This document shows positions 24,182 through 37,390 of a DNA stretch of 46,247 nucleotides, in pieces. The position numbers and the translations under genes were made by a program. Positions within the stretch are counted from its first letter, which is position 1, and each line of letters begins with the position of its first letter. Source of the DNA: Trueperaceae bacterium. GTDB lineage: Bacteria; Deinococcota; Deinococci; Deinococcales; Trueperaceae. Location: the NCBI GenBank assembly GCA_007130855.1, contig SLRS01000107.1, positions 1 through 46,247 of the forward strand. Direction: 5' to 3'. The notes under the pieces were generated by a model. It searched no databases. It was not told the DNA's origin and saw nothing but the letters and a program-made list of their open reading frames with translations.

Positions 24182-25498
24182 TCAACCGCGCCAGGTGCCG
24201 AAGAACGCCGCCTCGCCGCGCTCGAGCGCATCGAGCGCGTACAACAAGAGCGCGGCCGACCAGGCCTGCTGGGGGTGTCCCATCGGGCGCCCGCTGAGGC
24301 CATGGAGCCACTCGTTGAACTCCCACTCGTCGTGCTTGCCCGCGCGGTTGGCCGCGATCAGGGCGTCGAGTTGATGCTCGGCGCGCTGCACCTGGCCCGC
24401 ATGGACCAACGCAGCCACGTAGAAGCCACCCAAGAAGGGCCAGATTCCGCCGTTATGGTACTGGAACGGCAGGTTGAGCTCACGGCTCCGATAGTAGTCG
24501 CGCCAGTCACGATCACCCGGGAAGATCGGCGGGTAGAACGCCTTGATGGGGTACGGATCGTTCGCGCCCACGGCATGGGCGTGGGTCAGGATGCGCCCGC
24601 GCTGGCGCTCGTCGGCGACGCCGAGCAAGATGGCGAGGCAGTTGCCGAACGCGTCGAAGGTGTGGCCGAACTCGCGGAAGCCGGTCCAGGGCAGGTAGAA
24701 GGGCTTCTCCGTCAGCGTGGCCGTGTGCTGGTAGAGCAAGAACCACTCCAGTCGCAGCTGCTTGAGCTCGCCGAGTTGGCGGCCGAAGGCAGCGGCGTCC
24801 CAGGGCCGATCGAGCCACATCAGCAAGTTGATCTTGTGAGCCACGTCTTCGGCCCGGGCTACGTTCGCGCCGCCATCCGCGCCCAGTGCGTTGGCCATGG
24901 CAGCCATCGCGCGCAGCGCCGCGACGTACAGGACGTTGTCGTACAGGACGTTGTAGCGCACGCTGTACAGGTCGGCCCAGTCGCCGGCCTCGGGCACCTC
25001 GAGCAGGCCACAGGCGTTCATGTCCTGATAGCGCAACCACAGCGCCGCGCGCTCGAGCCGTGACCAGGAGGCGCGCACGAAGTCGAGGTCGCCGGTGGCC
25101 TGGCGATAGGCATCGTGCGCCACGATGAACCACAAGTTCGCGTCCACCGCCCCTGCGTTCTCGGTGGTGACATCGCCCGTGCGGGTGTCGACGTTGAGGT
25201 GGATCATGCCCAACTCGGTCTGGTGATCGCCGAGCGTCTCCAGCGAGGCTCGCGTGCAGGCGATCAGCTCGGGATCGCCCGTCACCAGCGCGCCGAGGGC
25301 GGTGATGCCGGCGTCGCGCGCCCACACCTGCGGATAACCGCCCGCGAAGGCCGAACCCTTGAACCCCGCCGGTGCGGCGCAGCGGCGCAGCACGTCGAGC
25401 GCGCGGGCGCGAGCCTCGACGCGTAGTTGCGCGCGGTCGCTCACGGGCGTAGCGGCGCTTGCTGCAGCCTGCCGGTCGCGGTCGGGGTCGATCGTCAT
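24182..25498 (-). CDS. GH100-like (alpha/alpha)6 glycosidase
   Basis: A 438-residue cytoplasmic enzyme (no signal peptide) with the helical-barrel pattern of bacterial invertase/debranching glycosidases. GYPQVWARDAGITALGAL, DANLWFIVAHDAYRQATGD, EVPEAGDWADLYSVRYNVLYDN, LPFQYHNGGIWPFLGGF and KHDEWEFNEWLHG follow GH100 alkaline invertases and related amylo-alpha-1,6-glucosidase-like proteins. Likely acids are the Asp in AGDWADL and the Glu in DEWEFNEW, by comparison only. It is the last gene of the second sugar operon and overlaps the upstream permease stop (TGATG). It is therefore probably the enzyme that splits the imported sugar, such as sucrose or a glucosyl-glycerate type compound. Confidence 0.78.
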   Translation of the reverse strand: MTIDPDRDRQAAASAATPVSDRAQLRVEARARALDVLRRCAAPAGFKGSAFAGGYPQVWARDAGITALGALVTGDPELIACTRASLETLGDHQTELGMIHLNVDTRTGDVTTENAGAVDANLWFIVAHDAYRQATGDLDFVRASWSRLERAALWLRYQDMNACGLLEVPEAGDWADLYSVRYNVLYDNVLYVAALRAMAAMANALGADGGANVARAEDVAHKINLLMWLDRPWDAAAFGRQLGELKQLRLEWFLLYQHTATLTEKPFYLPWTGFREFGHTFDAFGNCLAILLGVADERQRGRILTHAHAVGANDPYPIKAFYPPIFPGDRDWRDYYRSRELNLPFQYHNGGIWPFLGGFYVAALVHAGQVQRAEHQLDALIAANRAGKHDEWEFNEWLHGLSGRPMGHPQQAWSAALLLYALDALERGEAAFFGTWRG

Positions 25499-26382
25499 CA
25501 GCGGCCTCCGATGCCCGTCAGGGTGATGCCCTTGATGAAGTACCGCTGGGCGAACAGGAAGACCGTGAGCACCGGCAGCAGCGCCAGCACGCTCCCCGCC
25601 ATCAGCAGCGTCCAGGCGGTGTTGTACTGCCCCTGGAGCGTGTTCAGGCCCACGGTGAGGGTGCTCATGGTCACCGAGTTGGTCACCACCAGCGGATAGA
25701 GGAACGAGTTCCAGTTGAACAAGAACGTGAAGATCGCCAGGGCCGAGAGCGCGGGACCCGAGAGCGGCAGGATCACGCGCGTGAAGATCTGCCAGTGGGA
25801 GGCGCCGTCGACGACGGCCGCGTCCTCGAGCTCACCGGGGATGGTCAGGAAATACTGGCGCAGCAAGAAGGTGCCGAAAGCGCTGAAGGCGGCTGGCAGG
25901 ATGAGTGCCTGATAGGTGTCGATCCAACCCAGCGTGCGCAGCAAGATGAAGTTCGGGATGATCACCACCTGAGCCGGGATCATCAGCGTGCCCAAGTACC
26001 CTAGGAAGAGGGCGTCACGGCCGGGGAAGCGCAGCCTCGCGAACGCGTAGGCGGCCATCGCGCTCGTGCTCACGCCCAGGAGCGTCACCGAGCCGGCGAC
26101 CACTAAGCTGTTGACGAAGAAGCGCGCGAACGGCAGCACCTCGAAGAGCCGGCTGTAGTTGTCCCAGCGCAAGGGGCTCGGGATGAAGCTCGGCGGGTAC
26201 TCGAACACCGCACCGGCGCTCTTGAGCGAGGTCGAGAGCATCCACACGAACGGCATCAGCATCACGACGGCCGTCGGCACCAGGAAGATCACCAGCAGCC
26301 AGTTGCCGATCGTGTAGCCGAGCATCCGGCGCGGCCGGCGGCGGCGCTGCGCCGGCGGCGGCGTGCGCGAGCCCTCAGTCAT
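25498..26382 (-). CDS. Sugar ABC transporter permease, MalG type
   Basis: A 294-residue membrane subunit of standard length with six expected spans. An Arg/Pro-rich cytoplasmic N-terminus (residues 1-20) precedes the first span NWLLVIFLVPTAVVMLMPFV. The EAA loop is intact: ELEDAAVVDGASHWQIF followed by VILPLSGPAL. The C-terminus FAQRYFIKGITLTGIGGR is typical of MalG-type proteins. It overlaps the upstream permease by eight bases and the downstream glycosidase by one. Unlike the MalG-type protein at 3180, it has no periplasmic insertion. Confidence 0.93.
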   Translation of the reverse strand: MTEGSRTPPPAQRRRRPRRMLGYTIGNWLLVIFLVPTAVVMLMPFVWMLSTSLKSAGAVFEYPPSFIPSPLRWDNYSRLFEVLPFARFFVNSLVVAGSVTLLGVSTSAMAAYAFARLRFPGRDALFLGYLGTLMIPAQVVIIPNFILLRTLGWIDTYQALILPAAFSAFGTFLLRQYFLTIPGELEDAAVVDGASHWQIFTRVILPLSGPALSALAIFTFLFNWNSFLYPLVVTNSVTMSTLTVGLNTLQGQYNTAWTLLMAGSVLALLPVLTVFLFAQRYFIKGITLTGIGGR

Positions 26383-27307
26383 AGTGCACCCACTGCCGCT
26401 GGTAGCGGAACTGGACCACGGTCACCACGAAGATGATGGCGAACAGCACCCAGGCCATGGCGGCCGCGTAGCCCATCTGGAAGAACTGGAAGGCGTAGCG
26501 GTAGATGTTGAAGACCAGCGTGTTGGTGGCGTTGGCTGGACCGCCTTCGGTCATGATGAACGCCTGGTCGAATACCTGGAACGAGTTGATGATGCTGATC
26601 ACGAGCACGAAGAAGGTCGTCGACGACAGCATCGGGATGGTGATGTGCACGAAGCGGTGCCAACTGCTGGCACCGTCGATCTTGGCGGCCTCGTACAGGT
26701 GCGCCGGCACCGACTGGAGCCCGGCCAGGAACAGCACCATCGAGAAACCGATCTGCTGCCAGATGCTCATGATGATGATCGCCGGCAACGCCCAGCGCGT
26801 ACTCTGCAGCCAACTGGGCGGATCGTCGACGCCGAGCATGAACAGCACGCTGTTGAGCAGACCGAAGTCGGCGTGGAAGATCCAGCGCCACACCAACGCG
26901 ACGGCCACCGTCGAGGCGACCACCGGCATGAAGTAGGCGGCACGGAAGAACAGCCGCCCCGGGATGCGTGCGTTGAGCGCCATCGCCACGAGCAGCGCCA
27001 ACACCATCTGCGCCGGCACCGTTCCCAGCACGTACACGAAGGTGTTGCGCAAGACCCGGTGGAAGGTGGCGTCGTCGACGAGCCGCCGGTAGTTCGCGAG
27101 ACCCGCCCACTCCGGGGGCCGCAGCAGGTCCCAGTGGCTGAAGCTGATCAGCAGCGCCGCCAACACCGGGAAGAACGTGAAGATCAAGAAGCCCAGCAAG
27201 TTGGGCAGCAAGAAGCCGTAGGCCGTCGACGTGGTGCGGCGCTGCAGGCGACCGGAGTGCGCCTGGCGCGGCCCGGCGCGCACGCTGCGCTTCACATCGA
27301 CGGCCAC
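26375..27307 (-). CDS. Sugar ABC transporter permease, MalF/UgpA type
   Basis: A 310-residue membrane subunit. After a basic N-terminus of 30 residues comes span one (YGFLLPNLLGFLIFTFFPVL), then the conserved FSHWDLLRPPEWAGLANYRRL. The EAA loop is AHLYEAAKIDGASSWHRF followed by ITIPML. QVFDQAFIMTEGGPANAT is a family block. It begins ten bases after the amidohydrolase stop. The operon contains no ATPase gene. Confidence 0.93.
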   Translation of the reverse strand: MAVDVKRSVRAGPRQAHSGRLQRRTTSTAYGFLLPNLLGFLIFTFFPVLAALLISFSHWDLLRPPEWAGLANYRRLVDDATFHRVLRNTFVYVLGTVPAQMVLALLVAMALNARIPGRLFFRAAYFMPVVASTVAVALVWRWIFHADFGLLNSVLFMLGVDDPPSWLQSTRWALPAIIIMSIWQQIGFSMVLFLAGLQSVPAHLYEAAKIDGASSWHRFVHITIPMLSSTTFFVLVISIINSFQVFDQAFIMTEGGPANATNTLVFNIYRYAFQFFQMGYAAAMAWVLFAIIFVVTVVQFRYQRQWVHYD

Positions 27308-27317
27308 GGCGTCCCCC

Positions 27318-28187
27318 TCAATCCTCGAGCCCGAAGATGCGCGCGGCGTTCCCGTAGAAGATCAGCTCCTGCTGCTCCTGGCTGAGCCCCATGTCGGTGA
27401 AGGCAGCCCGCCACGCCTCGACGTCGCGCTTCATGCGGCGGTGGTCGGAGTCCGAGCCGTACACGAGCTTCTCGGGGCGGATCTCGCGCATGACGTAGCC
27501 ACCCTCGATGATGTGGTTGCGTACCACGTCGCCGCCGGAGATGTCGAAGAACAGCCTCGGTCGCCAGCGCGCGATCGCGCACGCCGTGCGGTAGTCGGGC
27601 CAGCCGAGGTGGGCACCGATGACGTACATCTCGGGGAAGTGGAAGGCGATGGTGTCGAGGTAGATCGGCTGCATGCGCGCCGAGCCGAAGCCGTAGCCGC
27701 GGCCGCGCGCCTGACGACCCAAGCGGGTCACCAGGCGCTCCTCCTCTTCGCCGCTCGGCGGCGCCTTCCAGGCGTCCTCGGCAGCCCCCATCAGGTAATC
27801 GTTGGGGCCGCCGAGGATGCCGGTGTGGAACAGCATGCGCATGCCGCGCGCCTGGGCCTTCTCATAGTGCCGGTAGTAGGCCTCGTCATCGTAGTTGCGC
27901 CTCGGGCCGAGCGTCTTGATGCCAGCGAAGCCGCGATCCGCGAACTCGTCGATCAGGCTCGGTGGGTCCTCGTCGAGGCGCAACCAGCCCAGGCCCACGA
28001 ACAGGTCCGGGGCACGCTCGATGGCGGCGCTCAACGCATCGTGGCCGGCGGGCCCGGGGTTGCCGAGGAGGGCGATCTTGACGATCCCCACCTCCTCGGC
28101 CACGTCCTCGAGCGCAGCCACGAAGTCCGCGCCGGAGGTGCGTTCCTCCCACCAGAAGTTGTGGACGTGGGCGTCGAAGATCCGCAT
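27318..28187 (-). CDS. Amidohydrolase-2 family metal-dependent hydrolase
   Basis: A 289-residue TIM-barrel hydrolase or decarboxylase of the amidohydrolase-2 family. Likely metal ligands are the N-terminal DAHVHNF, a His in RMLFHTGILGG, HLGWPDYR, and the Asp in VYGSDSDHRR near the C-terminus. Related enzymes include lactonases and decarboxylases. It sits between the binding-protein gene and the permeases, overlapping the former as TAATG, so it is expressed with the transporter. A lactone or sugar-derivative hydrolase is plausible; the substrate is not identifiable. Confidence 0.85.
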   Translation of the reverse strand: MRIFDAHVHNFWWEERTSGADFVAALEDVAEEVGIVKIALLGNPGPAGHDALSAAIERAPDLFVGLGWLRLDEDPPSLIDEFADRGFAGIKTLGPRRNYDDEAYYRHYEKAQARGMRMLFHTGILGGPNDYLMGAAEDAWKAPPSGEEEERLVTRLGRQARGRGYGFGSARMQPIYLDTIAFHFPEMYVIGAHLGWPDYRTACAIARWRPRLFFDISGGDVVRNHIIEGGYVMREIRPEKLVYGSDSDHRRMKRDVEAWRAAFTDMGLSQEQQELIFYGNAARIFGLED

Positions 28188-29446
28188 TACTGGCTAGCGG
28201 CCATGAAGCGGCGCACTTCGGCGCCCATCTGGGCGAGCGCGTCCTCGGCGCTCATCTCACCCGTATAGATCAGGTCGAGGTGGGGTACGACGATGGTGCT
28301 CTCGATCTCGCGCCAGTCGGGGAACATCGGTGCCAGACGACCCCGCTCGGTCTCGCTGATGAAGACCTCGCAGCTGACCGTCTCCGGGCAGGCGTTCACG
28401 AACGTGGCGGCCACCTCGGGATCGGCGAAGGAGGCGGGGACGGCGACGCCGGTGCCGGCGAAGATCGACTGGCCCTCGGGGCCGGCCAGGAACTGCAGGA
28501 AGGTCCAGGCGGCCTCGGGATGCTCGCTGGTGGCCGACATCACGTATCCGGCGCCGCCGAGGGTGTTGGCGCGAGTGCCGTCGGGACCTGCGGGCAGAGG
28601 CGCGACGTCCCAGGCGAAGTCAGCGTCCATGAAGGTCGGGATGCGCGCGGCGTTCGTCATCACCATCGCCACCCGGCCGGTGCTGAACAGCTCCGTGGTG
28701 CTGCCGAGCTGGGCCATCGCGTCGAAGCTGGGGACCGAGCCGTCGACCAGGATCATGTCGGCGATGAACTGGATCGCCGCGACCGCCTCGGGCTCGTCCA
28801 TCATGAACTCGGTGGGCTCGAGCGGGTCGTCGAACACGCTCCCCTGGTTCTGGTACACCCACTGCGGGTAGCGGTTCTTCTCCAGCGCCAGGCCGTACTG
28901 GGTGGCGCGGCCGCGCTCGTCGCGCACCGTGAGGGCCTGGGCGGCGGCGCGGATGTCGTCCCACCGCCATGCGTCGGTGGGGTACGCCATGCCGGCCTCG
29001 TCGAACAGGTCCTGGTTGTAGTACAAGACGTTGGTGTCGTTGTCGCGGGCGAAGCCGTAGACCTGGCCCTCGTAGCTGAAGATCTCGAGCAGGCCGGGAT
29101 GGTAGGCCTCGGTGTCGAAGCCGTCGCGCTCGATCAGCTCGTCGAGCGGAGCCAGCACGCCGCGGGCGGCGTAGGACGGGATGTTGTTGAGGAACATGAC
29201 GTCGGGCGCCGTGCCGCCGGCCATCTGCGTCAGGATGCGGTCGAAGTAAGCGCCCCAAGGCGCGTGCTGGACCTCGATGCGAACCTCGTCTTGGGCGGCG
29301 TGGAAGGCCTCGATGACCTCGTAGTTCGGTGGCAGTTCACCTGGATCGCCCCAGAACGACCACGTGATGGTGGTCTGGGCACTGGCGCCGATGAGCGCGC
29401 CGATGAGCGTGAGGGCGAGGGCGATGCGGATCAAGAGCTTGTTCAT
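28187..29446 (-). CDS. Sugar ABC transporter substrate-binding protein
   Basis: First gene of the second sugar operon, 419 residues. The signal peptide is MNKLLIRIALALTLIGALIG with cleavage likely after SAQ (no lipobox). Mature sequence matches family-1 binding proteins: TITWSFWGDPGEL, then FDRILTQMAGGTAPDVMFLNN and GVLAPLDELIERDG. Two Cys in ACPETVSC may form a disulfide, as in the binding protein at 761. CTGGAGGACGC precedes the ATG at 29446. The gene lies 60 bases after the ROK regulator, which suggests control by that protein. I find no strong promoter in the 60-base gap, so it may be read from the ROK promoter. Confidence 0.92.
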   Translation of the reverse strand: MNKLLIRIALALTLIGALIGASAQTTITWSFWGDPGELPPNYEVIEAFHAAQDEVRIEVQHAPWGAYFDRILTQMAGGTAPDVMFLNNIPSYAARGVLAPLDELIERDGFDTEAYHPGLLEIFSYEGQVYGFARDNDTNVLYYNQDLFDEAGMAYPTDAWRWDDIRAAAQALTVRDERGRATQYGLALEKNRYPQWVYQNQGSVFDDPLEPTEFMMDEPEAVAAIQFIADMILVDGSVPSFDAMAQLGSTTELFSTGRVAMVMTNAARIPTFMDADFAWDVAPLPAGPDGTRANTLGGAGYVMSATSEHPEAAWTFLQFLAGPEGQSIFAGTGVAVPASFADPEVAATFVNACPETVSCEVFISETERGRLAPMFPDWREIESTIVVPHLDLIYTGEMSAEDALAQMGAEVRRFMAASQ

Positions 29447-29506
29447 GCGTCCTCCAGGACAACGTTTCGTGCGCTATGCGCGATGATCCGGTCGGTCACT
29501 GGTTGC

Positions 29507-30643
29507 TCAGACGACACGTGTCAAGGGGCCTCCTCTCAACCAGCGCTCCACCGACCGCGCCGGCTCCAACGCCGTGGCGACGGCCCCATGCAAGCCGGCG
29601 TCGTCACCGAGTTGCGCTGCGGTCACGTCGACCTCGAAGCCGGTCATCAGCGCGACGGCGTCACGGACGGCGTCGAGTCGAGGGGCGCAGCGTAGGCCGA
29701 TACCGCCTCCCACGACGATACGTTCGGGATCGACGAGGGTGCTGACGGCGGCCAGCGCCCAGGCGAGATCGTCGAGGAACGACGCGACCAGCGTGGCGCC
29801 GGGCTCGCGCCCCTGCTCGGCCTCGAGGAAGGCGTCCTCGGGATCGCCGCTGCCGCCGGCCTGCAGGTGCCGGCGGCGCATGCCGGCACCGCAGAGGGCG
29901 TCCTCGAGCGTGGTCCGCGACCCTGGTGGGTACGGCAGCAGGCCGAACTCCCCGGCCCGCCCAGCCAGACCGCGTTGCAACGAGCCGCTCACCACCAGGC
30001 CGAACCCGAGGCCGGTGCCGATGCTGACGTAGACGACGTCACCGAGTCCCGCCCCGGCGCCCTGACGCAGCTCGCCGAGCGTCGCCGCGTTGACGTCGTT
30101 CAGCACCGTGAGGGGCAGCTCGAGCGCGGCGTCGAGCCGGTCGAGGAAGCCGTCGCTCTCGAGCGCGGGGAGGTTGGGTGCGAACGCGATCCGGCGCCGC
30201 AGCCGATCCACCACCCCCGGCGTGCCGATGGCGACGTCCAACACGTGTCCGGCCGCGCCTGCCTCGGCGGCGAGCCGCGCCACCATGGCGGCGAGCTGGG
30301 CCACGAGCGAGTCGGCAGGCCCGTGGTCGGTCGGCTCACGCAACGCGGCCACCACACGCCCGTCGAGATCGGCCAACACCGCTCGGGTGGTGGTGCCACC
30401 GACGTCCGCGCCGACGACGAAGCCGGCGTTGGCGTTGAACGCCAGGAGCTGCCCCGGGCGGCCGCTCGCGCGCCGCTCGAAGCCCCGCTCGACCACCAGC
30501 CGAGCCGCCAGCAGCGTCGCCACGAGGCCCGACGCGGTCGGCTTGCTGACGTTGCAGCGCCGGGCGATGGCGGCGCGCGACAACGGCCCCTCCTGTCGTA
30601 GCAGATCGACCACGGCTTGTTCCCGCATGGACACACCGGCCAT
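29507..30643 (-). CDS. ROK-family transcriptional regulator (NagC/XylR type)
   Basis: A 378-residue sugar-sensing repressor. Residues 1-60 form a winged-helix DNA-binding domain (LSRAAIARRCNVSKPTASGLVATLL). The rest is the sugar-kinase-like ROK domain: FVVGADVGGTTTRAVLADLDG, VLNDVNAATLGELRQGAG, VYVSIGTGLGFGLVV, RAGEFGLLPYPPG. The usual zinc-binding CGCxGC motif is replaced by TTLEDALCGAGM, with only one cysteine, so a zinc site is unlikely. It lies directly upstream of the sugar operon, and a palindrome abuts its start. ATG at 30643 is used; an in-frame ATG at 30628 is an alternative, and neither has a clear ribosome site. Confidence 0.9.
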   Translation of the reverse strand: MAGVSMREQAVVDLLRQEGPLSRAAIARRCNVSKPTASGLVATLLAARLVVERGFERRASGRPGQLLAFNANAGFVVGADVGGTTTRAVLADLDGRVVAALREPTDHGPADSLVAQLAAMVARLAAEAGAAGHVLDVAIGTPGVVDRLRRRIAFAPNLPALESDGFLDRLDAALELPLTVLNDVNAATLGELRQGAGAGLGDVVYVSIGTGLGFGLVVSGSLQRGLAGRAGEFGLLPYPPGSRTTLEDALCGAGMRRRHLQAGGSGDPEDAFLEAEQGREPGATLVASFLDDLAWALAAVSTLVDPERIVVGGGIGLRCAPRLDAVRDAVALMTGFEVDVTAAQLGDDAGLHGAVATALEPARSVERWLRGGPLTRVV

Positions 30644-30644
30644 C

Positions 30645-30665
30645 TTCGTTAGGAGACTTAACGAA
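30645..30665. promoter_or_regulatory. Palindromic operator of the ROK regulator
   Basis: TTCGTTA (30645-30651) and TAACGAA (30659-30665) are perfect inverted repeats around a seven-base spacer GGAGACT. AT-rich arms of this kind are rare in this GC-rich window. The site lies between a likely -10 and the ROK start codon, where a bound repressor would block transcription of its own gene and perhaps the sugar operon. Confidence 0.7.
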
Positions 30666-30726: not shown

Positions 30727-31527
30727 CTACGGGCGCCCCGGTGCCACGCCCGGCTCGGCAGCGTCACGTTCGATCACGAGCGCATGGATCACGGCGACAC
30801 GCCCGCCCCCGAGCTCGTGGCCGGTCATGACGCTGACCGCCTGGTCGCCCTGCGGCAACCTCAGCGTGAGCTCGCGGCCGTCGCGCGTGGTCGGGGCCAA
30901 CGCTTCGTCCACCAGCACCACCAGGTCGGCGACGCTGCGCTCGAACGCGAGCCGCAGCTGCACGCCGTTGGCCAGCTCCACGCGCAGCAGCGGGTTCGGG
31001 TCGCCGGCGAACACCTGGACCACGAAGACGCGGCCGTCGGGGTGCTCGGCCAGACCGTGGCCTACGTGCGTCCACTCCTCGCCGAGGAGGTTGTCACGGT
31101 GCGCGCTGCTCTCCAGCCAGCCGCGCAGCGTCCGCTCGGCGAGATCGTCGCGCACGGACCGCACTTGGGCGAGGTTCTCCCCCAGACGAACCGTCGCGCC
31201 GCCGGCGTTCGCCACGCGCTGCGCCAGCGTCTCGTTCGCCGGCGTCGGGCTCTCGTGGTCGAAGTAGCCGAGCGCCACCATCTCGGCGGCATGGTGCCGT
31301 GCCGCCAGCGCCAGCACCTCGCTGTGCCTGAGCGCCGCGCGTCCCTCCCGCTTGCGCTCGGCGTCGACGAGCTCGAGGAAGCGGCCCTCGAGCGGGTGCG
31401 CCGGGACATCCGGGTAGGCGGCCGGCAGCGGACCCCGGGCCGCGGCCACGAGCGCGACCACGAGCAACGACAACGACGCCACGAGCGTCGCGCCGCGGGC
31501 GAGGCGACCTACTGAGTGGTGGCGCAT
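30727..31527 (-). CDS. Secreted CAP-domain (SCP/PR-1 family) protein
   Basis: A 266-residue exported protein with an N-terminal signal or anchor (LVASLSLLVVALVAA, about residues 15-30). The CAP domain spans residues about 45-175. It has DAERKREGRAALRHSEVLALAARHHAAEM, the His-Glu pair in GYFDHESPTPANETL, GENLAQVRSVRDD, and the closing LESSAHRDNLLGEEWTHVGHGLA. The C-terminal 90 residues look like a small beta domain of unknown type. It starts three bases after the corrinoid-activator stop, so it is probably co-transcribed with the methyl-transfer cluster. A functional link to that cluster is not evident. Confidence 0.85.
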   Translation of the reverse strand: MRHHSVGRLARGATLVASLSLLVVALVAAARGPLPAAYPDVPAHPLEGRFLELVDAERKREGRAALRHSEVLALAARHHAAEMVALGYFDHESPTPANETLAQRVANAGGATVRLGENLAQVRSVRDDLAERTLRGWLESSAHRDNLLGEEWTHVGHGLAEHPDGRVFVVQVFAGDPNPLLRVELANGVQLRLAFERSVADLVVLVDEALAPTTRDGRELTLRLPQGDQAVSVMTGHELGGGRVAVIHALVIERDAAEPGVAPGRP

Positions 31528-31530
31528 GCC

Positions 31531-33423
31531 TCAGCCTACGGCGGCGGGCTCGAATCCGAGGTGCGCGACGAACGCGTCGGCGAAGGCCGGCGAGCCGGAG
31601 AGCTCCAGGGTGCGCATCCGGGCTGCGATCGCCGCGGCGCGCTCACGCCGCGCCAACGAAGTGGCGGCCATCACCACGCCGCTGCCGGCGGCGTTCCCGA
31701 GCGCCTCGCTGCGAGCGCTCAGCACGGTCGGTAGCAGCCCCACCCGAGCGGCGGCGTCGGCGCGCAGGAAGCTGCCGAAACCGCCGGCCAAGTACACGCG
31801 CTCGACCTCGTCGGCAGCGATGCCGGCCGCGCCCAACAGCGTGTCGATCGCGGCCGCCACGGCCGCCTTGGCGAGCTGCAGTTCGCGCACGTCGCACTCG
31901 TTCAGCACGATCGCTTCGCCGCCCTCGGTCTCTGGGCCCGGCACCACCACGAACGCCGCCCGTCCCCGCTGCTCGACGCAGCGCTCGCGCACCGCCGCGG
32001 CCACCGACGGCGCGAGCTCGTCGCGCCTGCGCAGGCGGCCACCCTCGTCGATCACGCCGGCGTCGAGCAGCGCCGCCACGACGTCGAGCAGGCCCGCGCC
32101 GCAGATGCCCACCGCGGGTACTCCCCCGATGGTGCTCGGCGAGGGTACCTGGTCGCCCGGGGTCAGTGCGAAGGCGCTCACCGCGCCCTCGACACCGCCG
32201 ACGCCGGCGCCGATGCAGGCGCCCTCGAACGCCGGGCCGGCCGCGGCACTGCAGGCCAGCAGCCACGAGGCGTTGCCGAGCACGACCTCGCCATTGGTGC
32301 CGAGATCGATCAGCAGCGAGATGCCGCGAGCCTCGTCCATGCCCGCCGCGAGGACCGCCGCGACGACGTCGGCGCCTACGTAAGCGGAGACGCCCGGCAG
32401 CGTCTCCACCGATGCCGCCCGATGGAGCGAGAGGCCGAGCTCGCGCGCCTCGTAGACCCTTGCGGCGACGGTCACCGGCACGAATGGCGCCACCGCGATC
32501 GCGCTGGGGTCGAGGCCCAGCAAGGCGTGCAGCATGGTGGTGTTGCCCACGACGGTCAGTGCCCGCACGGCCGTGGGCGTCGACGCGTGGCGCGCGCTCA
32601 GCAGCGCCACCAGCGCCTGGAGCTGCTCGACGATGCGTCGCTGCAGCTCCCCGACGCCGTGCTGCCGGGCATGCGCGAGCCGTGTGACCACGTCGGCCCC
32701 GAGATCGGCCTGTCGGTTCGGCTCGGCGTGCACGTCGACCACGCGGCCGGTCGCGAGATCGACCAGGTAGGCGGCCACCGTGGTGGTCCCGATGTCGACC
32801 GCGACCCCCCACAACCCGGCGTCCGCCACGGGCGCCTCCACGGCGAGCAGGACGTTGCCCACCGTGCCCGACGGCGCCATGGCCTCGATCACGTCGACCG
32901 ACTGATCGCAGCGTCGCAGCGTCGCGCTCAGCTCCTGCAACGCCGCCAGCGAGAGCCGGTGGCCGGCGCAGCCGGCATGGCGCAACAGCCGCTCGAGGTC
33001 GGGGGCCGCATCGGTCAGCGTCGCCGGCGGCAGCGTCACGCGGCGCCGGCGCAGTGGCGGGTCGCGCCCGGGTTCGCCTCGACCGGGTCCGTCGGGGCCG
33101 GCCGCGGGCGGATCCGGGCGCTGTGCGCGAGCCCGACCCGGCGGCAGTTCGACCACCAGGTGCGCACTGGGCGCCAGGCGGCAGGCGAGCCGCACGCCGG
33201 CGGCCAACCGCGCCGGTGCCAGCAGACTCCGCTCCACGGCGTCCGCGGCGGCCGCCTCGCCGGCGAGCACGCGCACCGTGCACTTGCCGCAGGTCCCCGC
33301 GCCGCCGCAGGGCGCGTCGAGCGCGAATCGAAGCCGGCGAAGCACCTCCAGCACGTCCGTCGCTGTGCCGATCGAGACGGCGGCGCGGGCGCCGTCGTCG
33401 ACGACGGTGAGCAGGCGGTTCAC
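31531..33423 (-). CDS. Corrinoid-protein activator: [2Fe-2S] ferredoxin domain plus ASKHA ATPase (RACE/DUF4445 type)
   Basis: Reduces the inactive Co(II) corrinoid of a methyl-transfer protein back to Co(I) using ATP. The 630-residue protein starts with a [2Fe-2S] ferredoxin domain: Cys39, Cys45, Cys48 and Cys81 in APCGGAGTCGKC and ACRLAP. A linker rich in Pro/Arg follows, then the ATPase with GVAVDIGTTTVAAYLVDL, VVGNTTMLHALLGLDP, LLIDLGTNGEVVLGN and VYLAGGFGSFLRADAA. The GTG start at 33423 overlaps the DUF1638 stop (GTGA). An upstream extension of the same frame reads through that gene out of phase and is not included. The gene is the fifth of the methyl-transfer operon. Confidence 0.9.
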   Translation of the reverse strand: MNRLLTVVDDGARAAVSIGTATDVLEVLRRLRFALDAPCGGAGTCGKCTVRVLAGEAAAADAVERSLLAPARLAAGVRLACRLAPSAHLVVELPPGRARAQRPDPPAAGPDGPGRGEPGRDPPLRRRRVTLPPATLTDAAPDLERLLRHAGCAGHRLSLAALQELSATLRRCDQSVDVIEAMAPSGTVGNVLLAVEAPVADAGLWGVAVDIGTTTVAAYLVDLATGRVVDVHAEPNRQADLGADVVTRLAHARQHGVGELQRRIVEQLQALVALLSARHASTPTAVRALTVVGNTTMLHALLGLDPSAIAVAPFVPVTVAARVYEARELGLSLHRAASVETLPGVSAYVGADVVAAVLAAGMDEARGISLLIDLGTNGEVVLGNASWLLACSAAAGPAFEGACIGAGVGGVEGAVSAFALTPGDQVPSPSTIGGVPAVGICGAGLLDVVAALLDAGVIDEGGRLRRRDELAPSVAAAVRERCVEQRGRAAFVVVPGPETEGGEAIVLNECDVRELQLAKAAVAAAIDTLLGAAGIAADEVERVYLAGGFGSFLRADAAARVGLLPTVLSARSEALGNAAGSGVVMAATSLARRERAAAIAARMRTLELSGSPAFADAFVAHLGFEPAAVG

Positions 33424-34160
33424 GAGGCGGCGACCACGCCGTCGTCGTACGTCGGGGTGATCGTCGCGCCGGGTGGGACCGTCAGGAAGCGCTCGTCCCA
33501 GCCTCCCGCCAGCAGGTCGGTCAGCAGCGTCGCGTCGCCCGGCAACGCGTCGAAGCTCCAGCCGCGGCCCGCCGCCGTTCGCGCAGCCCGGGCACACGCG
33601 CCCGCGTCCGGCGCCCCGCTCGCCGTCGCAGCACCACGCCAGGCGATGAAGGTGCAGTGCTCGAGCCGTGCCAGGGCGTCGCGCTCGAGCTGCAGCAGGT
33701 AGGCGGCGGGCTCGGGGCCGAAGCGTGCCGTGGCGTCGTGGTAGCGGCGTAGGAGGTGCGCTTCGTCAGGCATGGCACCGTGCTCGACCCAGCCCCGCGA
33801 GGCCCAGAAGGTGCCCGGGCGCGCGGCCGTGCACTGGCGATACCGGTGGCGGCAGCCCAGCAGCAGCGTGAAGCAGTCGTGGGCGCGCGGGACCACCAGC
33901 CGGTGGTGCGCCGAGCGTAGGCCGACGATGCCGTTCCCGCACAGGCCGATGCCCAGCACGATGGCATCGTAGGCCGCAGCGCCGGCGTCACGAGCGGCAT
34001 CGATCCGGTCGATCTCGGCCTGCAGGGCCCTGCGCAGCGCCACGGGCCGCGCGTGCAGGCCCTGATCGAGGAAGCGCGCATCGACCGGGTGTGCCGTGCG
34101 CGCCAGCAGCGCCTGGAACTCCCGGTCCAGCACGCCGCAGGCGATGAGCACGAGGTGCAC
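33420..34160 (-). CDS. DUF1638 family protein
   Basis: A 246-residue protein of unknown function from a family often placed beside corrinoid methyltransferase genes in methanogens and anaerobic bacteria. The family pattern is clear: LVLIACGVLDREFQALL at the N-terminus, YDAIVLGIGLCGNGIVGL, then VVPRAHDCFTLLLG and PGTFWASRGWVEHG. Several conserved Cys and His (CGV, LCGNG, RAHDC) could bind a metal or cofactor. The start is GTG at 34160, with GAGGTGG upstream, 12 bases after the preceding stop. It is the fourth gene of the cluster. Confidence 0.85.
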   Translation of the reverse strand: MHLVLIACGVLDREFQALLARTAHPVDARFLDQGLHARPVALRRALQAEIDRIDAARDAGAAAYDAIVLGIGLCGNGIVGLRSAHHRLVVPRAHDCFTLLLGCRHRYRQCTAARPGTFWASRGWVEHGAMPDEAHLLRRYHDATARFGPEPAAYLLQLERDALARLEHCTFIAWRGAATASGAPDAGACARAARTAAGRGWSFDALPGDATLLTDLLAGGWDERFLTVPPGATITPTYDDGVVAAS

Positions 34161-34172
34161 GCTCAGCCCACC

Positions 34173-35528
34173 TCAGGCGCCGGCCAGCGCCTGCCGGATG
34201 CGCGCATCGAGCGCCTCCCGGCTGGGGATGATCGAGGCGTAGACGAGCTCCCCGTTGAGGTAGATGCTGGGCAGCGTGCTCACCCCCAGCGCCTTGCAGC
34301 GTGCGACGTTCTCGCGCTCGCTGAAGCGGTGCTCGACGACGTCGATCGCGCTCCCGAAACGCTCGCCGGCACCGAGCGCCGTGCGCAGCATGTAGGTGCA
34401 GGCGGCGCACGTGGCGGAGTCGAGCGTGAACACCTCGAGCAGCGGACGCGCCAGCGCCGCGTAGTCGGGAAGCTCGACCGTGATGGCCTCGTCGGTGCGC
34501 GCAGCGTGGCCGAGCGACGCGCGCGCGGCCGCCGGCCGGCGCAGCGCCTGGCCGAGGGCGATGACGTTCTCGACCGGCAAGTCGTAGGGCATGTCGCAGC
34601 CGGGCGACACGATCAGCCCGCGCGGGTCGACGGCGGCGAGCAGGTCGACGGCGCAGCGCATGTTGTCGAGCTGCGACCCGAACAGCATCACGGTCGTGAG
34701 CGGGACGTTGCCGCCGAGTGCGATGCGGTGTTCGTCGGTAACGACCTTCGCGGCCGCCAGGTCGACGTTCTCGTCGATCGAGATGCCGTCGGGGCGGGTC
34801 CGGCACATCGCCTCGAGATTGCGGGTGGCATCGCCGCAGACGAAGAACGACGACGGCGTGTCGCGGCTGCGCAGGCGCTCGAACAGCCGCGCGAAGGGCG
34901 CGTGCAGGAACTGCTCGAAGTGCGCCGGCGAGATCTGCGACACCAGCGGATCGACCACGGCCACGACGTCGGCTCCGACCTCCGCGTACAGGTCGGCCAT
35001 GTGCAACGCGACGCCGGTCGTGTGCGCCAACAAATCGTGTACGTAGGGCTCGTCGTCGAAGAGGTCGAGGAACAGCTCGGTGCCGCGCAGGTGCGAGGCG
35101 AGCGTGAACGGCCCGCACAGCAGCGCGTAGACGGCGGTGGTGTGGCCGACGCACGCCACGAGCCGGGCGACGATGTCGACCGCCATCGGGATGCGCGCCG
35201 CGGCCGCGTCGAAGGCGGGGAACGCGCCGCCGCGCGCCAGCGGATGCGTCACCACCACGGGCGGCGAGTCGGCCGACCAGCGCAGCTCGCAGCCCAGCGC
35301 CTCGGCCTCGAGCTGGAGGTCGAACATCGCCGGCATGCCATCGGGCTCGTACAGCCCGTGCGCCTCGAGCAGGCCCCGTTCCAGCGCCTCGACGTCGCGG
35401 TACAGCGCGTCGGCCGGCACGCCGATCAGCTTGCCGACGTGCACGCCGGTGAACGGCACCCACGGGGTCGCCGACGGCGTCTCGTGACGCAGCGCGGCGA
35501 GCACCCGGTCCCGACCGGTCAAGGGCAT
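34173..35528 (-). CDS. UroD-family methyltransferase fused to a thioredoxin-like domain
   Basis: A 451-residue two-domain protein. Residues 1-330 are a uroporphyrinogen-decarboxylase-type barrel as in MtaA/MtbA, with the family start TGRDRVLAALRHE. Zinc ligands in MtaA are His-x-Cys plus a distal Cys. Here the site reads FFVCGD, with Phe229 in place of His and Cys231 kept, and the distal Cys311 in SPGCDMPYD. Residues about 365-451 form a thioredoxin- or glutaredoxin-like fold with CAAC (Cys374, Cys377) and LPSIYLNGELVY holding the cis-proline. AGGAGG precedes the ATG at 35528. It likely moves a methyl group to or from the corrinoid protein encoded 19 bases upstream; the redox domain suggests a thiol or disulfide step. 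Confidence 0.85.
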   Translation of the reverse strand: MPLTGRDRVLAALRHETPSATPWVPFTGVHVGKLIGVPADALYRDVEALERGLLEAHGLYEPDGMPAMFDLQLEAEALGCELRWSADSPPVVVTHPLARGGAFPAFDAAAARIPMAVDIVARLVACVGHTTAVYALLCGPFTLASHLRGTELFLDLFDDEPYVHDLLAHTTGVALHMADLYAEVGADVVAVVDPLVSQISPAHFEQFLHAPFARLFERLRSRDTPSSFFVCGDATRNLEAMCRTRPDGISIDENVDLAAAKVVTDEHRIALGGNVPLTTVMLFGSQLDNMRCAVDLLAAVDPRGLIVSPGCDMPYDLPVENVIALGQALRRPAAARASLGHAARTDEAITVELPDYAALARPLLEVFTLDSATCAACTYMLRTALGAGERFGSAIDVVEHRFSERENVARCKALGVSTLPSIYLNGELVYASIIPSREALDARIRQALAGA

Positions 35529-35547
35529 GGCGAACCTCCTGGGACTT

Positions 35548-36192
35548 TCAGGATGCGCGACCCGCGCAGTGGGCCAGTGCGGCGTCGGCGGCGCTCGACG
35601 CGTCGGGCGCGTAGAGGTCGGCACCGATCGCCTCCCGGAACGCATCGGTGACCGGCGCCCCGCCGACCATGATGCACACACGGCCGCGGAGCCCCTGCGC
35701 CTGGGCCGCCTCGACCACGTGGCGCATCTCGGTCATGGTGGTGGTCAGCAGCGCCGAGCAGGCGACGATGTCGGCGTCGTGCTCGGTCGCCGCGCGCACG
35801 AAGCGCTCGGCGCTCACGTCGACGCCGAGGTCGATCACCGCGAGACCCTTGGCCTCCATCATCATCCGCACGAGGTTCTTGCCGATGTCGTGCAGGTCGC
35901 CCTTCACCGTACCGAGCACCACCTTGCCGCGGGCCTTCACGCCGGCACTGACGAGGTGGGGCTCGAGCACGGCGATCCCGGCGTGCATGGCCCGGGCCGC
36001 GATCAGCACCTCGGGCACGAACACCTCGTTCGCCTTGAAGCGCTCGCCGATCACGCCCATGCCTTGCATGAGCCCATCCTCCAGGATCCGCTGGGGCGTC
36101 TCGCCTTCGTCGAGCGCCTGCTGCACGAGCGCCTCGACCTCCTTGGCCTGGCCGCGCTGGAGCCGTTCGGACAGCTCGCGTAACACGCTCAC
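35548..36192 (-). CDS. Corrinoid (B12-binding) methyl carrier protein, MtaC/MtbC type
   Basis: A 214-residue methyl shuttle. Residues 1-90 are the helical cap (EALVQQALDEGETPQRILED, then RFKANEVFVPEVLIAARAMH). The B12 Rossmann domain follows, with GTVKGDLHDIGKNLV, where His101 is the lower cobalt ligand. SALLTTTM and VGGAPVTDAFREAIGADLYAPDA are the remaining cofactor contacts. The start is GTG at 36192, with GAGGAGGAG just upstream. A longer frame reaching 37371 crosses the upstream methyltransferase out of phase and is excluded. It sits between the two UroD-family genes, as expected for their shared partner. Confidence 0.93.
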   Translation of the reverse strand: MSVLRELSERLQRGQAKEVEALVQQALDEGETPQRILEDGLMQGMGVIGERFKANEVFVPEVLIAARAMHAGIAVLEPHLVSAGVKARGKVVLGTVKGDLHDIGKNLVRMMMEAKGLAVIDLGVDVSAERFVRAATEHDADIVACSALLTTTMTEMRHVVEAAQAQGLRGRVCIMVGGAPVTDAFREAIGADLYAPDASSAADAALAHCAGRAS

Positions 36193-36221
36193 GGTGCTCC
36201 TCCTCGCTCCCTTCTCACTGC

Positions 36222-37223
36222 TCAGGCCCGGTAGGGCAGCGGCCGGCACAGCGCCGCGAGGTTCTCGGCGGGCGTTCCCGCGGGGATCTCGCAGCCGGCG
36301 TTGACCATGTACGGATTGCCGGCACGCTCGTAGGCGTCCAGTACGCCGCTCGCGATCGATGCGGGGGTGCCGTTGCGGACCACCGAGACCGGGTCCAAGT
36401 TGCCGGTGATCACCACTCGCTCGCCCACGGCCGCGCGCACGGCGGCGAGGTCGACCATATGGTCGACATCGACGATGTCGACTCCGAGGTCGGCGATGCC
36501 CGGCAGCAGATGCGTGATGTTGCCGCAGATGTGCAACTTGGCGAAGGCACCCGACGCCCTGACGGCCTGCACCAGCCGCTTCTCGCGCGGCTGGATCAGC
36601 GCCTCGTAGGTGCGCGGGTCGATCTGGCTGGCGATCGCGTCGCCGATGCCGATGGTGTCGGCGCCGGCGGCGACCTGTGCGCGCGCGAAGGCGATGCCGG
36701 TCTCGACGCACACGTCCATCAGCGCGCCGGCGTACTCCGGATCGTCCATCAGGTCGAACATGAAGGTGATCACGCCGCGCAGGTTGGCGGCCTGGGCGGC
36801 CGGACCCTCCACCCAACCGAGCAGCGAGTACGTGCCGGCATGGTCGCGGGCGTAGCGCTCCACGGCCCTGACGCGATCGAGCATGCGCGCCGAGCCCATT
36901 GGGTCGGGCACCGCGAGCGTATCGAGGTCCTTCGTGTCGGCCAGTGGCTGGGTGCTGCGCGGAGGCCCGTCGGCGACGAAGGTCACCGCGCCGCCGAAGC
37001 CGTGCGTTTCGCGGTAGGGGTCGGAGATGCAGCTCAGCTGGTCGATGCCGAACACCTCGGCGCAGCGCACGTTGGCCTCCACCAGGACGCAGTGGTCGGC
37101 GGCGAAGCGGCCGTAGTCCGAACCGCTGAACTCGGCTGCGAACTGCATCAGGATCGGGGTCCGCGCCAGATCGTCGACGGCGCGCCCCGCGACCGTACCC
37201 AGGTACCGCTCGAGGCCGTTCAC
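36222..37223 (-). CDS. UroD-family methyltransferase with complete zinc site
   Basis: A 333-residue single-domain UroD-type protein. Its zinc site is intact: His231 and Cys233 in KLHICGNITHLL and Cys311 in NAGCEIP. The N-terminus (ARTPILMQFAAEFSGSDYG, CISDPYRETHGFGG) matches a bacterial UroD-like group and not true heme-pathway UroD. It probably demethylates the unknown substrate or passes methyl to an acceptor; which of the two UroD-family proteins does which is unknown. The start is GTG at 37223, coupled by GTGA to a small upstream frame; no ribosome site of its own is clear. Confidence 0.88.
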   Translation of the reverse strand: MNGLERYLGTVAGRAVDDLARTPILMQFAAEFSGSDYGRFAADHCVLVEANVRCAEVFGIDQLSCISDPYRETHGFGGAVTFVADGPPRSTQPLADTKDLDTLAVPDPMGSARMLDRVRAVERYARDHAGTYSLLGWVEGPAAQAANLRGVITFMFDLMDDPEYAGALMDVCVETGIAFARAQVAAGADTIGIGDAIASQIDPRTYEALIQPREKRLVQAVRASGAFAKLHICGNITHLLPGIADLGVDIVDVDHMVDLAAVRAAVGERVVITGNLDPVSVVRNGTPASIASGVLDAYERAGNPYMVNAGCEIPAGTPAENLAALCRPLPYRA

Positions 37224-37390
37224 CGCGACGCCCTGCGGGGCGCCGCGATGATGCCCCTGGCCTCGTGGCCCGCTGCGCCCGCGGCCCGCACGCCCGCGCC
37301 AGGTCGCAGCAGGTGCCCTGGTCGTCCGGCGGCACGCCTTCGGGCGATCCCCGGTCGACCGCGCTCATCACCCCGCTCCTTGCCGTTCAT
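37220..37390 (-). CDS. Possible small leader ORF of the methyl-transfer operon
   Basis: A 56-codon frame with a strong GGAAAGGAG ribosome site before its ATG at 37390, and a stop that overlaps the next gene's GTG start. The peptide is Arg/Gly/Ala-rich (MNGKERGDERGRPGIARRRA at the start) and has no known domain. A second frame with its own AAGGAG starts at an ATG 16 bases later. It has better third-position G/C and contains two adjacent cysteines, but has no stop before running through the methyltransferase gene. Either may be chance; at most one is real. Confidence 0.3.
   Translation of the reverse strand: MNGKERGDERGRPGIARRRAAGRPGHLLRPGAGVRAAGAAGHEARGIIAAPRRASR

Follow-up and report, generated by a model that had tools for sequence, protein, structure and literature searches.

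The closest described relatives of the system considered here are the mlp gene clusters (MGCs), which are broadly defined by two or more MtaA-like proteins together with a corrinoid protein and an activator, in the absence of a tetrahydrofolate (H4folate) methyltransferase (Kountz and Balskus 2023, PMC10418091). Type 1 MGCs have been reported only from anaerobes, roles with methyl-selenium or methyl-sulfur compounds have been suggested for them, and the His-Cys-Cys ligands of their Mlp proteins are reported to be invariable except in several Mlps1 (PMC10418091). Here we analyze a five-gene operon from a Trueperaceae bacterium (contig SLRS01000107.1 of assembly GCA_007130855.1, 46,247 nucleotides [nt], hereafter the window), in which two proteins of the UroD superfamily, UroD1 and UroD2, are encoded together with a corrinoid protein, a DUF1638 protein, and an ATP-dependent activator. 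A first-pass annotation of the window had described a corrinoid cluster with two UroD enzymes and no H4folate methyltransferase, and this description was borne out; the cluster is not without precedent, however, because MtaA-like clusters lacking such a methyltransferase were already published in 2023 (PMC10418091), and its core enzyme, UroD2, is apparently undescribed. We conclude that the block is a variant of the MGC type distinct from type 1, and that its two UroD proteins form clades of their own.

The block occupies positions 31531 to 37223 of the minus strand (gene starts corrected) and runs from UroD1 (36222..37223) through the corrinoid methyl carrier (35548..36192), UroD2 (34173..35528), and the DUF1638 protein (33420..34160) to a RACo/RamA-type activator (31531..33423). 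The intergenic gaps along it are 29, 19, and 12 nt, followed by a 4-nt overlap (GTGA) in which the GTG start of the activator meets the DUF1638 stop, and the tight coupling of these genes noted earlier therefore stands. All five proteins score far above their Pfam cutoffs: UroD1 and UroD2 match URO-D at 188 and 163.7 bits, the carrier, which has the motif GDLHDIGKN, matches B12-binding at 96 bits and B12-binding_2 at 82.5 bits, and the DUF1638 protein matches PF07796 at 95 bits against a cutoff of 27. In the activator an N-terminal 2Fe-2S domain (Fer2, 35.2 bits), a RACo linker, a middle region (Raco_middle, 175.9 bits), and an ASKHA C terminus (RACo_C_ter, 231.6 bits) all exceed their cutoffs. 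The five frames have third-position G+C fractions of 0.80 to 0.95, which identifies them as coding genes rather than chance open reading frames, and both the overall and the third-position G+C of the block match the rest of the window.

Curated subfamily models place these proteins outside the groups already named. UroD1 and UroD2 reach 145 and 131 bits with the MtaA/CmuA model TIGR01463 (cutoff, 235.4) and 91.6 and 49.8 bits with the HemE model TIGR01464 (cutoff, 302.95); these scores, together with the zinc motifs, rule out misannotated HemE. A true HemE was found separately in 83 of 101 related genomes in a URO-D family search (it is missing from this incomplete metagenome-assembled genome [MAG]), which likewise argues that the two proteins are not heme enzymes misread. 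The carrier is MtgC-like, scoring 222.9 bits with the glycine-betaine corrinoid protein model NF047996 (cutoff, 370), and the NCBIfam cutoff for AcsV was also not reached by the block.

Set against the broad MGC definition, the locus has the expected composition and layout: its UroD proteins share 29% and 27% local identity with Methanosarcina mazei MtaA, the corrinoid protein and activator are recognized by Pfam, all genes lie on one strand with gaps far below the 2-kb limit, and no H4folate methyltransferase occurs within 20 kb, although one side offers only 9 kb of contig (Pterin_bind matches lie on other contigs). It departs from type 1 in having Phe-Cys-Cys ligands and a fused thioredoxin domain in UroD2, in the presence of DUF1638, and in a host which, judged by genes only, does not look like an obligate anaerobe, with two copies of COX1 (cytochrome oxidase subunit I). 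UroD1 forms a clade of its own with support of 100/99. In constrained phylogenies, grouping UroD1 with the MtaA, SCMT, and Mlp rows was rejected (P = 0.0025, a result to which one unlabeled row inside the clade contributes), and the same grouping for UroD2 was not (P = 0.42); the Mlp reference consisted of three Mlps from an Acetoanaerobium cluster, which are not verified Mlp2 or Mlp3 sequences. Neither UroD protein appears to belong to a clade of known substrate, in keeping with the first-pass annotation.

Other corrinoid systems each share part of this architecture. The soluble coenzyme M (CoM) methyltransferases MtaA and MtbA share the fold (template modeling [TM] score of 0.89 to MtaA 4ay7) and, with UroD1, the His-Cys-Cys site, but identity is only 27 to 29%, the host is not a methanogen, and no MtaB- or MtbB-type partner was seen in the block. 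The chloromethane system CmuA/CmuB/CmuC of aerobic methylotrophs likewise combines a UroD-type methyltransferase, with a His-Cys-Cys site, and a corrinoid domain in an aerobe; there, however, the methyltransferase is fused to the corrinoid domain and works with the H4folate methyltransferase CmuB, and neither is present here. The split methionine synthase and the glycine-betaine demethylase of Roseobacter combine a corrinoid protein, a RACo-type activator, and DUF1638 in aerobes (PMC5764234, PMC12478193), but no UroD enzymes have been described in them, and the partners there are either proteins that bind pterin and homocysteine or glycine-betaine enzymes. The reported absence of MttB, MtaB, and MtmB holds for the block, to which our search for them was confined, no genome-wide search having been made.

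The most distinctive component of the block is UroD2. Its URO-D region resembles MtaA, and its C terminus (approximately residues 363 to 451; 34176..34442) is a thioredoxin-like domain, overlooked in the first-pass annotation, with the motif Cys374-Ala-Ala-Cys377, a cis-Pro loop (LPS), and profile matches to the archaeal thioredoxins 1nho and 1fo5. An AlphaFold2 model (mean predicted local distance difference test [pLDDT], 92) has an alpha/beta domain at this position, and its best PDB match in Foldseek, with the TM score normalized to the target, is MtaA 4ay7; the predicted fold is thus MtaA-like, and it also resembles MetE. The two UroD proteins, correctly paired as UroD-family members before, are more different than had been seen. 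When they were aligned in register with MtaA 4ay7, CmuA, and the three Acetoanaerobium Mlps, UroD1 (His231-Cys233...Cys311) and all references had His-Cys-Cys ligands, whereas UroD2 had Phe-Cys-Cys: the segment Phe229-Val-Cys231 (34836..34844) takes the place of the His-X-Cys of MtaA and UroD1, and Cys311 (34596..34598, in PGCDMPY) corresponds to the last zinc-ligand cysteine of MtaA. The replacement of His by Phe (in SFFVCG) is found in every UroD2 copy checked, both cysteines are retained among the relatives described below, and the CAAC motif is, like the Phe-Val-Cys segment, invariant in the family alignment.

With UroD2 and its Subdoligranulum relative as queries, at least 293 relatives were recovered from named species genomes, of which the best 80 align over their full length at 50 to 56% identity. 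They are spread over Clostridia, spirochetes, Anaerolineae/Chloroflexi, and other groups, mostly anaerobes, and no relatives were found in a viral collection or in phages. In the library searched, we found no paper on a UroD-thioredoxin family or on a link between UroD, thioredoxin, and CobW, and UroD2 with its thioredoxin domain apparently constitutes an undescribed enzyme family.

Two sister clostridial MAG loci carry an in-frame TGA exactly at the Cys311 codon of their UroD2 genes (L101:10937-10939 and L116:10937-10939). In both, the frame continues past this codon to its natural end, rereading of the genomes confirmed a single TGA, and SelB exceeds its curated cutoff. An alternative genetic code was rejected because TGA ends other genes in these MAGs, e.g., DUF2284 in L116. 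A hairpin follows each TGA, but it fails as proof of a selenocysteine insertion sequence, since in 10 of 98 Cys-type orthologs a hairpin forms that equals or exceeds the stronger of these two, and it supports recoding only weakly. The codon likely encodes selenocysteine in these two genomes, which would mark position 311 as chemically central. Searching a review of prokaryotic selenoproteins published in 2026 (PMC13188914), we found no UroD or MtaA entry; if a selenocysteine form at the metal ligand is real, a UroD-type methyltransferase would join the known selenoproteins.

The genomic surroundings of UroD2 were compared across 81 loci, for which gene counts are lower bounds as contig ends truncate many of them. 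At least 54 loci include a corrinoid protein (directly upstream in 30) and at least 66 a CobW-type GTPase, which is absent from the block in the window, along with PocR-AraC regulators (at least 40), activators (at least 42), DUF1638 (at least 12), and a Met_synt_B12-like protein (at least 9). A second UroD protein, drawn from many different families, occurs in at least 31 loci, and MtmB homologs occur in at least 5. This pattern, a shared core of UroD2, corrinoid protein, and CobW with varying partner methyltransferases, suggests that UroD2 is an acceptor-side enzyme. The CobW GTPase, directly downstream of UroD2 in 58 of the 81 loci, is distantly similar to CobW-related selenoproteins and to ZigA and is possibly a metal chaperone for UroD2. 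All five kinds of gene in the block recur in two loci (L061 and L069), and UroD1, corrinoid protein, UroD2, and activator recur in a third (L063); the gene order of the window is not kept elsewhere, and only gene content recurs.

Genes of the UroD1 clade, by comparison, often lie beside transport and carbohydrate genes. They adjoin sugar ABC transporters of the Rbs/Xyl/ChvE or MalE type in five genomes (L150 to L153 and L155), glycosidases in two (an alpha-mannosidase of family GH38 in L125 and a GH3 enzyme in L159), and sulfatases in two (L151 and L157), and several of these sugar-associated loci have no UroD2 within them. The two proteins nevertheless occur together: in a 295-genome sample of one clostridial order, UroD2 is carried by 6 of 7 strict UroD1 genomes versus 22 genomes overall (hypergeometric P of ∼6e-7, or ∼7e-6 without the query genome, with relatedness not corrected for), and in 5 of the 6 co-carrying clostridial genomes the two genes lie on different contigs. 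This co-occurrence across genomes, mostly on different contigs, argues that UroD1 and UroD2 work together. From its gene neighborhoods we tentatively suggest, at less than even confidence, that UroD1 acts on a small methylated compound resembling a sugar or polyol. A separate row of genes in Peptoclostridium acidaminophilum (L127:2107-9765) encodes a sugar ABC transporter, a DUF4091 protein, a corrinoid protein, and a His-Cys-Cys UroD protein and provides a further hint of corrinoid chemistry linked to sugars.

The methyl group would also require an exit route. The first-pass annotation had noted the absence of an MtrH-type H4folate methyltransferase, and a genome-wide Pterin_bind search upheld this, since the only matches were a FolP-like protein and a full-length MetH (1,262 amino acids) and no stand-alone MtrH-type protein was present. 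In 25 genomes checked in the same way, matches were mostly of FolP and MetH size only, with none in two genomes and, as an exception, ten in one (G449). An MtrH-type enzyme is therefore not the acceptor side here, which leaves UroD2 as the candidate.

The DUF1638 protein, to which homology assigns an accessory part in corrinoid reactivation, has Cys8, His36, Cys74, and Cys96 invariant across an alignment of 13 relatives and a confidently predicted fold (pLDDT, 88) for which a fold search returned no significant PDB match; the lack of a match together with the invariant Cys and His residues suggests an unrecognized metal-binding fold. It occurs in only one other of 101 related genomes. In Phaeobacter, B12-dependent methionine synthesis requires both DUF1638 and a RamA-like protein, and genetics ties the pair to B12 reactivation (PMC5764234).

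Building on the genes and their architecture, the residues of the active sites, the joint occurrence of UroD1 with UroD2, and the lack of an MtrH-type protein, we propose a complete two-enzyme methyl-transfer system with a sugar-like donor and UroD2 as its exit enzyme, a scheme whose reactions and substrate class are deduced from sequence and that we consider evenly balanced between right and wrong. By analogy with its homologs, the RACo-type activator, aided by the DUF1638 protein, would spend ATP to reduce the corrinoid protein, yielding its active Co(I) form. UroD1, with its His-Cys-Cys zinc site, would then transfer the methyl group of one particular methylated substrate to the corrinoid protein, from which UroD2, with its Phe-Cys-Cys (or selenocysteine) metal site and thioredoxin-like domain, would pass it to an acceptor, thereby standing in for the absent H4folate or CoM methyltransferase. 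The thiolate- and Cys-rich site and the thioredoxin domain favor a thiol as this acceptor, with H4folate second. UroD1 is assigned to the substrate-specific side because it is tied to transport and sugar genes and co-occurs with the shared-core UroD2, and the idea in the first-pass annotation that the two serve as donor- and acceptor-side enzymes is supported by this distribution, although the reactions themselves are putative; on balance, we think this division of roles probable.

Several observations weigh against a sugar-linked donor or against the pairing. One UroD1-clade locus (L156) has a phosphate-type transporter and another (L158) has no sugar genes, and two genomes, G261 and the sister genome of our host (G002, 77% complete), have UroD1 without a UroD2 match at the chosen threshold. 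The co-occurrence statistic ignores shared ancestry, and the sugar operon adjacent to the block is conserved without any UroD gene in five relatives, so its proximity says little about the substrate and is weakened as a clue. Finally, a His-Cys-Cys site such as that of UroD1 has been read as pointing to substrates methylated on S or Se (PMC10418091), although in our alignment CmuA shares this site.

The strongest competing explanation, which we nonetheless consider unlikely, is methyl-sulfur or methyl-selenium salvage as suggested for type 1 clusters, in which UroD1 would remove the methyl group from a methylthio or methylseleno compound (perhaps a sugar so modified that enters through the sugar transporters) and UroD2 would carry out the second S or Se transfer. 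The His-Cys-Cys site just mentioned, the probable selenocysteine at the metal ligand of two UroD2 orthologs, and the broad MGC architecture are all consistent with it. Against it, the His that is invariant in type 1 Mlps is missing from UroD2, the grouping of UroD1 with MtaA and Mlps was rejected (in part through that one unlabeled row), the neighborhoods of the block and of the UroD1-clade genes showed no sulfur or selenium genes, and two genomes with a Cys-type UroD2 (G103 and G104) yielded no SelB match over the cutoff, an absence that is weak evidence in MAGs.

It is rather improbable that the roles are reversed, with UroD2 demethylating one common substrate and variable partners, UroD1 among them, methylating different acceptors such as thiols. 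Both enzymes could bind the corrinoid protein, and UroD1 keeps the thiol-activating site of MtaA, but transporters, glycosidases, and regulators track UroD1 and not UroD2, and one would expect the acceptor side, being shared, to be the conserved partner. More doubtful still is a feed into methionine synthesis, as in the Roseobacter split MetH with MtgC, a RamA-like protein, and DUF1638, whereby the methyl group would reach homocysteine via UroD2 or MetH. The DUF1638 and RACo-type pair is required for B12-dependent methionine synthesis in those bacteria (PMC5764234, PMC12478193) and the MetE-like aspect of the UroD2 fold would fit, but the genome has its own MetH-sized frame, the block has no homocysteine- or pterin-binding partner, and, unlike a core methionine pathway, it is absent from the 110 other genomes of the phylum sample. 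It is very improbable that the block is an accessory island, newly acquired or in decay, without a current function in the strain, for although it is found in 1 of 111 genomes in that sample and the sister genome keeps UroD1 alone, its frames are intact, its catalytic residues invariant, its G+C content that of the window, and its gaps and overlap operon-like.

The distribution of the block among close relatives bears on its origin. The window is one contig of a 3.55-Mb, 89% complete genome (G000), and the sister genome G002 has orthologs of UroD1, EamA, and IMPase on one flank (81, 76, and 86% identity) and of the CAP, ROK, solute-binding, and amidohydrolase proteins (57, 69, 88, and 91% identity), as well as a permease, on the other; because both flanks have such orthologs, the contig belongs to the genus and is unlikely to be foreign to the MAG. 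The two flanks lie on separate contigs in G002, where the genes for the corrinoid protein, UroD2, DUF1638, and the activator are missing between them, and the four-gene core represents either an accessory insertion or a retained rarity. A stop codon reported in the G002 match to UroD1 proved to be the gene's own stop and not a recoded codon. In G002 a different UroD-like gene (L040:409-1572; HWDGD motif, URO-D 22.4 bits, just under the cutoff) sits upstream of the CAP-ROK-sugar operon, the position taken by the corrinoid block in the window.

The first-pass annotation had considered such a system beside aerobic-looking genes notable. The host genome does have two COX1 genes, but it is not unique in this, since two Chloroflexi carriers of UroD2 have one or two; none was found in the clostridial UroD2 genomes tested. 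The system is thus not strictly confined to anaerobes.

Downstream of the block, a secreted-type protein with a CAP/SCP domain (Pfam; 30727..31527, minus strand), missed before, starts 3 nt past the activator stop and is probably cotranscribed with the block, although a role in methyl transfer is unlikely. It is followed by the sugar operon (24182..30643, minus strand), assigned by Pfam to a ROK regulator, a solute-binding protein, an amidohydrolase, two permeases, and a glycosidase-like protein, which we treat as genomic context. Just upstream of the ROK gene lies a perfect 7-bp palindrome (TTCGTTA-N7-TAACGAA, 30645 to 30665), present once in the window and likely the ROK operator; scans for promoters, terminators, and Rfam families gave nothing useful. 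Elsewhere, plasmids of Thiodictyon (L044:7332-12323) and Azoarcus (L045:7243-12392) encode a corrinoid protein and UroD proteins with degenerate zinc ligands beside ASKHA/ATP-binding proteins, with a diguanylate cyclase in addition in the former, and these sets are perhaps a corrinoid-based sensor.

Our findings lead to the proposal, which we advance tentatively and would not yet call probable, that UroD2-thioredoxin fusions represent an undescribed class of methyl-corrinoid enzymes, with an altered metal site (Phe-Cys-Cys, with selenocysteine in some species), providing a common exit step for many demethylation systems that have no CoM or H4folate methyltransferase, and serving here in the demethylation of a sugar-like compound by a bacterium equipped for aerobic respiration. 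If UroD2 is indeed a general acceptor enzyme, it would answer where the methyl group goes in MtaA-like clusters lacking these methyltransferases, and the question of methyl destination would become testable with one purified protein. Given the size and spread of the family, an unnoticed route for methylated compounds may exist in many genomes.

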